DNA of 64,000 nucleotides from Streptacidiphilus rugosus AM-16 (GTDB taxonomy: Bacteria > Actinomycetota > Actinomycetes > Streptomycetales > Streptomycetaceae): the NCBI RefSeq assembly GCF_000744655.1, contig NZ_JQMJ01000004.1:7023698-7087697 (forward strand), given 5' to 3'. Position numbers and translations under genes: made by a program. Below, one piece after another: positions 13,918 through 15,713 of this stretch. The notes beneath the pieces are model-generated. The model ran no database searches, was not told the DNA's origin, and saw only the letters and a program-made list of their open reading frames with translations. Positions within the stretch are counted from its first letter, which is position 1; each line of letters begins with the position of its first letter.

Positions 13918-14844
13918 TCAGCCGCGCCGTAGGCGCCTGACGGTCTTCTTCGGTTGGTCGGTCTTGTCGGTCTTCTGGGTCTTCCCGGCCGTCCGGGTCT
14001 TCCCGGCCGTCTCCGCCGTCTCGACCGTCTCGGCCTCCGCGGCGGGCGACTCCGTCGCATCGGACCGTGCCGTCGCGCCGGTCGGCCTCGACGCGGTCGT
14101 CTTGCCGATGGTCGGCAGGACGAAGTCCTTGATCATGTCCACCGCGTCGCGGACCAGCGGGCGGAAGACCCGGTAGCGCGACAGGGTGACGAGCTTGGCG
14201 ACGAAGGGTGAGCAGCGCTTGACGAAGGCACGGGTGCGCTCGGTGTCGTCGGTGCGGTCGAAGACCCAGTACAGGACCACGACCATGAGGTGCAGCCAGA
14301 GCAGGTCGGGCAGGAGCTCGTCCAGCTCGGGGTCGATCTTGGGCCCGAGGTCCGACCCGTCCAGCACCTCGCGGAAGAGCTGGACGGCCGTCTCGCGGGC
14401 CGGGTGGGACTCGTTGGAGAAGGGGCTGAGCGCGCTGTTCGGGTCGGCGGCCGTGCGGAAGAACTGCGCGGCGAACTCGTGGTACGGCGCCGCGCAGTCG
14501 ACCCACGAGTCCAGCGCGATGCAGAGCCGCTCCGAGAAGTCCCGCTCCCCCGCCATCCGCTGCCGGGCCTCCACCAGATGCTCGTGCGTCATGCGGTCGT
14601 AGAACCCCTGGATCAGGAATTCCTTGCCCTCGTAGTAGTAGTAGGCGTTGCCGACCGAGACGCCGGCCTCCGCCGCGATCGCCCGCATGGTGGTCTTCTC
14701 GTAGCCCCGCTCCTGGAAGAGCCGCATGGCGGTCTCCAGGATCAGCGCCCGGGTGCGTTCGCTCTTCGCCTTCTTGGCACTCTCGGCCGCGCCCGCCTTC
14801 TCGGCGGGTTCGGGGGAGGTATCGGTCGGCAGATCGTCGGTCAC
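13918..14844 (-). CDS. TetR-family transcriptional regulator with long charged tail
   Basis: The 308-residue protein is longer than usual for TetR (about 200). The helix-turn-helix lies at about 28-75 (RTRALILETAMRLFQERGY and AEAGVSVGNAYYYYEGKE). The ligand-binding helical domain runs to about 255, and residues 256-308 form a low-complexity Thr/Lys/Ala/Glu tail ending KKTVRRLRRG. The fold and QGFYDRMT segment resemble acyl-CoA or fatty acid responsive TetR proteins, but the ligand is unknown. The promoter about 350 bp upstream carries two copies of a 14-bp palindrome, probably its own operator. Confidence 0.9.
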   Translation of the reverse strand: MTDDLPTDTSPEPAEKAGAAESAKKAKSERTRALILETAMRLFQERGYEKTTMRAIAAEAGVSVGNAYYYYEGKEFLIQGFYDRMTHEHLVEARQRMAGERDFSERLCIALDSWVDCAAPYHEFAAQFFRTAADPNSALSPFSNESHPARETAVQLFREVLDGSDLGPKIDPELDELLPDLLWLHLMVVVLYWVFDRTDDTERTRAFVKRCSPFVAKLVTLSRYRVFRPLVRDAVDMIKDFVLPTIGKTTASRPTGATARSDATESPAAEAETVETAETAGKTRTAGKTQKTDKTDQPKKTVRRLRRG

Positions 14845-15033
14845 GGGTCGAGGCTATCCGGAGCGGGGCCCGCGCCGAGCGCCGCAGGCGGAGTGCGGGT
14901 GCGGCTTCGCGGGGTTCGGTCGGGTGGCGGGGGCACCGGCCGCCCCCTGCACGGTCGGTGCCCCCGCCTCCCTTTCGCGCCGCCGGACCGGCGCGTCGCT
15001 GGCACCCGGGTCCGGCGCGCTCCACGGCACGGC

Positions 15034-15141
15034 TCAGGCCCGCGGGACGAGTCCGCCGGGCGGTCCGGTTCCACCGTCGGGCGGCTCGGAGACGTGCGTG
15101 ATCACGTTCGGGTTCAGGCTCGGGTTCATGCTCGGGTCCAT
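15034..15141 (-). CDS. Small 35-residue ORF upstream of tetR
   Basis: This short reading frame starts MDPSMNPSLNPNVITHV and ends GGTGPPGGLVPRA. It lies directly downstream of the promoter with twin palindromes and upstream of tetR in the same direction. GAAGGG lies 10 nt before the ATG. An in-frame GTG a few codons upstream would add VKGCCA. No family is recognised. It could be a leader peptide or small regulator cotranscribed with tetR, or a chance ORF. Confidence 0.4.
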   Translation of the reverse strand: MDPSMNPSLNPNVITHVSEPPDGGTGPPGGLVPRA

Positions 15142-15177
15142 GGCGCAACAGCCCTTCACCACACGTCGCACTACTTC

Positions 15178-15235
15178 TTGAACGCGTTCAGTTTCGCGTC
15201 GATGCGACTGTAGCCATGTTTTTGAACGCGTTCAA
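15178..15235 (-). promoter_or_regulatory. Promoter with two palindromic operators
   Basis: Minus-strand TTGAAC (15230-15235) and TACAGT (15207-15212) are spaced by 17 bp, a good promoter. The -35 lies inside the perfect palindrome TTGAACGCGTTCAA (15222-15235). A second copy, TTGAACGCGTTCA at 15178-15190, sits just after the expected start point. Two operators flanking a promoter are typical of repressor control, most likely by the adjacent TetR protein. The outer palindrome could also act on the plus-strand gene at 15378. Confidence 0.7.
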
Positions 15236-15377
15236 GTAGCGTGGGAGGCGCGAGCGAAACCCAAGGCTCAGATCTGGATCAAGTCCGGTGTCGGCCGCTC
15301 GCACCCCGGGCACAGTGGCGATGACGCGGCGGGAACCGCCGCCGAACGGGCCCGACGGGGCCGAGCAAGGGGGACTG

Positions 15378-15713
15378 ATGGTCAGCATGGCGCTCGTGGT
15401 GGCGGTGCCGATCGTGTTCTTCGGCGGGATTCTCGCGGTGGTGGTGACCGTGGTCCGAAGGGCCAACGGGGCGGTCCAGGGCGGAGCGGTCCGGCGGAGC
15501 GGCTCGTCGTGGCGGCCGGGAACGTCCGACGGCCTCGCCTACCTGCCCGACGCTTCCCCGTCGAGCGGCTACGCCGACAACGGGTCCACGCATCACGGGG
15601 GCCACCACCACGGCGGGCATCACGACACCGGGGGCTCGTCCTGGTCCTCCGGCTGGGACTCGGGGAGTTCGGGCGGCGGCTTCGACGGCGGTGGCGGGCA
15701 CCACCACGGCTGA
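15378..15713 (+). CDS. Small single-span membrane protein with His/Gly-rich tail
   Basis: The 111-residue product has one N-terminal membrane span (about 3-24, VSMALVVAVPIVFFGGILAV), a short basic stretch (VVRRANG) and a long hydrophilic tail. The tail is dominated by His, Gly and Ser, with STHHGGHHHGGHHD and a final GGGGHHHG. The topology suggests a tail that might bind metal or be disordered. I do not recognise a family. AAGGGGG lies before the ATG at 15378. An earlier in-frame GTG at 15288 lacks a ribosome site. Confidence 0.6.
   Translation: MVSMALVVAVPIVFFGGILAVVVTVVRRANGAVQGGAVRRSGSSWRPGTSDGLAYLPDASPSSGYADNGSTHHGGHHHGGHHDTGGSSWSSGWDSGSSGGGFDGGGGHHHG

Follow-up and report, generated by a model that had tools for sequence, protein, structure and literature searches.

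A twin operator predicted to autoregulate a TetR repressor gene is conserved in relatives of Streptomyces and outlasts its apparent cargo genes in a Streptacidiphilus

The locus studied here raises two questions: are the two palindromes at the promoter ahead of a tetR gene the operator of that gene's own product, and does the small open reading frame (ORF) between promoter and tetR encode a new peptide? In the 64-kb stretch of DNA that was analysed (the window), both palindromes, the minus-strand promoter (TTGAAC, 17 bp, TACAGT) with its −35 box inside one of them, the 35-codon ORF, and the tetR gene all lie where the earlier note had placed them (Table 1). Its description of the operator as exact holds for operator 1, a perfect 14-bp palindrome, but not for operator 2, in which one end base is off. 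Read along the minus strand, the order is TTGAACGCGTTCAA-AAACATGGC-TACAGT-...-CTGAACGCGTTCAA; operator 2 is 44 bp from operator 1, right after the predicted start point. Six operator-type sites with up to three mismatches occur in the 64-kb window, versus a mean of 0.78 in dinucleotide shuffles. With no more than one mismatch allowed, the whole 9.0-Mb genome holds only six sites, the twin pair accounting for two of them, and the reversed control pattern gave 0 sites across that genome at the same stringency. The surroundings of the promoter contain two further elements, namely TTGATCCAGATCTGAG on the minus strand (window 15262-15285), which precedes operator 1 by about 30-45 bp and is common to four Streptacidiphilus genomes, and a divergent ORF (window 15378-15713, plus strand) for a membrane-anchored, His/Gly-rich protein of 111 aa, for which no Pfam or NCBIfam family was matched.

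Table 1. Positions of the features of the tetR locus within the window
Feature	Position	Strand	Description
tetR	13918-14844	minus	308 aa, GTG start; TetR_N and TetR_C_23 domains; relative of PDB 3c07
58-codon ORF	14854-15030	minus	Putative relic of DCC1-like (PF04134) oxidoreductase gene
GC-rich hairpin, strong	14922-14972	minus	Inside the putative oxidoreductase relic
35-codon ORF	15034-15141	minus	Putative membrane-gene relic: keeps the former start codon and stop region but not the middle
Operator 2	15178-15191	n/a	TTGAACGCGTTCAG as plus-strand letters
−10 box	15207-15212	minus	TACAGT, 17 bp downstream of −35
Operator 1	15222-15235	n/a	TTGAACGCGTTCAA, spans the −35 box
−35 box	15230-15235	minus	TTGAAC; conserved

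The tetR product carries a TetR_N domain (PF00440; 60.2 bits, cut-off 24) and a TetR_C_23 ligand/dimer domain (PF17931; 82.3 bits, cut-off 29.1). Its best solved relative is PDB 3c07 from Streptomyces coelicolor (E = 1e-77 over residues 13-249), an orthologous protein with the same two domains, which we take to be the product of SCO4850. The charged tail attributed to the protein is real, as the C-terminus beyond residue ~255 is rich in Lys, Arg, Glu, and Thr; named relatives put the window in Streptacidiphilus. In the literature, SCO4850 appears in transcriptome tables as a TetR regulator only, and a search on 3c07/SCO4850 and SCO4850-4852 found no paper on operator, targets, ligand, or function. 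PDB 3c07 is known as a structure, whereas the window adds a predicted operator and predicted targets.

The earlier note had proposed a search for the palindrome beside tetR orthologues in related genomes, and this search was positive. An operator pair lies upstream of the orthologue at 71 of the 79 named tetR loci whose upstream sequence was long enough; 28 of these pairs are perfect and 31 have one mismatch in 28 scored letters. The two copies are spaced by 40-47 bp, and a TANNNT box follows TTGAAC at 16-18 bp in 68 of the 71 loci, reading TACAGT or TAGAGT in 56. Information content across these loci is ~1.5-2.0 bits at the TTGAAC/GTTCAA positions versus 0.1-0.6 bits at most flanks. The relatives first retrieved with the TetR protein likewise have the pair upstream of tetR, often at a distance of 1 kb. 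Among 61 whole genomes, the strict pair was found in 31 of the 36 in which an orthologue was recognisable versus none of the 25 in which it was not (Fisher p = 1.6e-12, a value uncorrected for relatedness among genomes that are not independent); outside the genus but within the same family, the counts are 12/14 and 0/9. S. neutrinimicus has kept tetR, and the twin operator is missing at its tetR locus. Hence, a palindromic operator that overlaps the promoter of tetR itself is conserved beside the orthologues, missing where the gene is missing, and kept after loss of the genes in between. These comparisons strongly support the proposed autoregulated unit, with binding and repression as predictions, and indicate that, in relatives of Streptomyces, the pair has long been maintained as the switch that controls a TetR repressor gene.

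By analogy, the predicted mechanism has a precedent in KstR of mycobacteria, a TetR repressor that represses itself via a palindrome of 14 bp, TnnAACnnGTTnnA, that overlaps elements of the promoter (PMC1995591). Direct comparison showed that TTGAACGCGTTCAA fits this motif (Kendall et al., 2007; PMC1995591). The two systems differ in that KstR has a single operator copy at its own promoter, whereas the window tetR has two, and the targets of KstR belong to lipid degradation (PMC1995591). The match to the motif, together with the many TetR paralogues in these genomes, raises the alternative that a different regulator of the TetR type, e.g., a KstR homologue, occupies the palindromes, and that tetR is a mere neighbour. 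We consider this improbable, since the pair tracks one particular tetR orthologue, losses within the family included, and the extra sites described below occur only in orthologue-carrying genomes. Moreover, the window TetR scores 29.9 bits against an NCBIfam cut-off of 280 for KstR, far below membership, and is not its orthologue.

The neighbourhood of the pair in relatives bears on the second question. In most of them, the promoter is followed by a gene for a ~140-aa membrane protein, a gene for a DCC1-like thiol oxidoreductase (PF04134), and then tetR. The membrane-protein gene (133-146 aa, MDLTVVTYVVYL...) starts ~30-50 nt past operator 2, and its product matched no family in Pfam or NCBIfam; an overlap of 4 nt with the oxidoreductase gene is frequent. 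In S. guryensis, the operon is near a succinate dehydrogenase operon. The Streptomyces/Streptacidiphilus operon thus shares with the window the twin operator, the promoter, the gene order, and tetR, but its two cargo genes are intact, whereas the window appears to hold only relics of them. At 24 named loci, mostly from Kitasatospora, the membrane gene is not nearby, and the pair and promoter are kept 200-400 bp before tetR; in some genomes without a nearby membrane gene, the pair has decayed. SCO4848 was dropped as a candidate for the ancestral membrane gene, because it is presumably a different small membrane protein gene, the one that carries the phiBT1 attB.

In an alignment to S. jiangxiensis and S. 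anmyonensis, whose operons are intact, the window is collinear at the membrane gene's ribosome-site region and ATG, at the last codons and stop of that gene (TCGTCCCGCGGGCCTGAGCCGTG against TCGCCCCGCAGGCCTGAGCGATG), at the oxidoreductase start (GGTGCCAGCGACGCGCCGGTCCGG, i.e., GASDAPVR; E down to 3e-6), and at the oxidoreductase stop and tetR start (TCCGGATAGCCTCGACCCGTGACC), while the middles of both cargo genes are missing. The 58-codon ORF keeps the N-terminal GASDAPVR and the C-terminal ...SG*, and its stop lies 9 nt ahead of tetR. No intact ~140-aa membrane gene was found after operator 2 in the window, where only traces of its start and end occur. The membrane protein of the operon was found in 31 relatives, yet nowhere else in the window genome, and a search without a positive control found no full oxidoreductase gene elsewhere in that genome. 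The collinear alignment with its missing middles therefore points to the 35-codon ORF as a collapsed membrane gene and to the 58-codon ORF as a collapsed oxidoreductase gene. Taken alone, the resemblance between the end of the 35-codon ORF and that of the membrane gene gives modest to moderate support, as it was matched by 1 to 49 of 300 shuffles, depending on the relative; it is the collinearity, not the end match alone, that argues for a relic. The 35-codon ORF opens with a 12-nt near-tandem repeat (ATGGACCCGAGC, ATGAACCCGAGC, CTGAACCCGAAC; window 15100-15141, minus strand).

The earlier note had instead considered this ORF a possible half of a new peptide-plus-repressor unit. A translated peptide working with the repressor, e.g., as a leader that senses the inducer or as a co-repressor, would fit a start codon at the conserved gene-start position, coding-like third positions (GC3 0.89), and a place right after the conserved promoter. 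However, the coding bias is what an in-frame relic would be expected to show, and the locus of S. fuscans, the nearest deletion-bearing species, has collapsed differently at this place and reads another sequence there. The suggested check of conservation went against the peptide as well: no relative of the 35-aa peptide was found in 60 other genomes, the best match outside the genome having E = 0.03, and a conserved small peptide was rejected on this result. We thus regard a functional peptide as highly improbable, and the comparisons indicate that the ORF is a leftover of lost cargo rather than a new peptide. A short ORF before tetR in Kitasatospora, ending in ...GWN(L/V)VSG*, seemed conserved but was judged another relic, because it spans a hairpin and its end coincides with that of the lost oxidoreductase gene.

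The route from the twin promoter to tetR passes a strong hairpin inside the putative oxidoreductase relic (the fold of 14916-14980 gave −47.8 kcal/mol), which could weaken read-through to tetR. In addition, TAGCCT, a possible separate −10 box, stands 10 nt before the tetR GTG, and TAGGCT occupies the same position in many Kitasatospora, so the twin promoter may not be the sole source of tetR transcription. These features would fit transcription of tetR mainly from a promoter immediately ahead of its GTG, with the twin operator now driving only a short dead-end transcript. This seems to us rather unlikely, since the TAGCCT of operon-bearing relatives is the oxidoreductase stop codon plus the following bases, and the −35 and −10 boxes of the twin promoter are retained in many cargo-less species. 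A hairpin, GGCACCGGATGC-GGAGGGGG-CATCCGGTGCC, is common to Kitasatospora loci in the stretch from operator 2 to tetR; in some species both of its arms carry changes, and it may be an attenuator or terminator.

A search for the operator plus a −10 box returned 13 sites away from tetR loci, all in orthologue-bearing genomes. Eight of the 13 lie before an NAD epimerase gene (TIGR01777, 213 bits). Across all epimerase orthologues with readable upstream DNA, operator and −10 box precede the gene in 11 of 14 tetR-bearing versus 0 of 3 tetR-less genomes; in the window genome, the site is TTGAACACGTTCAA (G000:C4:1356388; L195:1501-1514), which lies 62 nt before the gene and is followed after 17 bp by the −10 box TAGGCT. 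The exceptions have another palindrome upstream, TTTGAGCGATCGCTTAAA or close to it; in one related genus (L205, L207, L208, L209, and L213), such a palindrome precedes the epimerase, which suggests that a different regulator took over there. Another two sites precede a family of membrane-protein genes (~160 aa), at which the operator was found in 10 of 15 tetR-bearing versus 0 of 5 other genomes, and in 8 of 8 Streptacidiphilus genomes having the gene; the window genome carries TTGAACGTGTTCAA (G000:C4:1072282; L003:1501-1514, L232) directly before this gene, with a CATGAT box 17 bp on. In one genome, a twin operator is ahead of a YndJ gene (PF14158). Two other sites in the window genome were not counted as targets, one (L002) lying beside or inside a coding region and the other (L005) having no −10 box. 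A literature search for the operator found no functional description. The regulator is of a known kind, and its regulon is apparently undescribed; we lean towards this type of TetR governing a regulon that is conserved in Streptomycetaceae and in a related family within the order. Such a regulon would comprise two membrane proteins, the DCC1-like oxidoreductase, the TIGR01777 epimerase, and, in one genome, YndJ, and may be a redox or envelope module.

Taken together, we favour, with a probability of about 0.85, an autorepressing TetR on a twin operator, with collapsed cargo and targets in trans. A dimeric repressor of the PDB 3c07 type would sit on two TTGAACnnGTTCAA palindromes, one covering the −35 box (operator 1) and the other at roughly +9 to +22 (operator 2), so that two dimers exclude RNA polymerase and the repressor shuts its own transcription until it is presumably released by a ligand. 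The ancestral transcript would have run through the membrane-protein gene and the DCC1-like oxidoreductase gene, with predicted read-through to tetR. Both genes ahead of tetR would have shrunk in place in this Streptacidiphilus, leaving the promoter, the relics (the 35- and 58-codon ORFs), and tetR. The repressor would also control the TIGR01777 epimerase and ~160-aa membrane-protein genes via single operators over the −35 box, and these targets in trans would explain the persistence of repressor and operator after cargo loss.

With a precise operator prediction and a short set of predicted targets for 3c07, an orphan TetR structure, the function of this protein becomes testable in any laboratory strain of Streptomyces. 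The locus also suggests that a promoter-operator can persist beyond the genes that it once served, and that relics left in place can pass for novel small ORFs and so mislead the annotation of small proteins.
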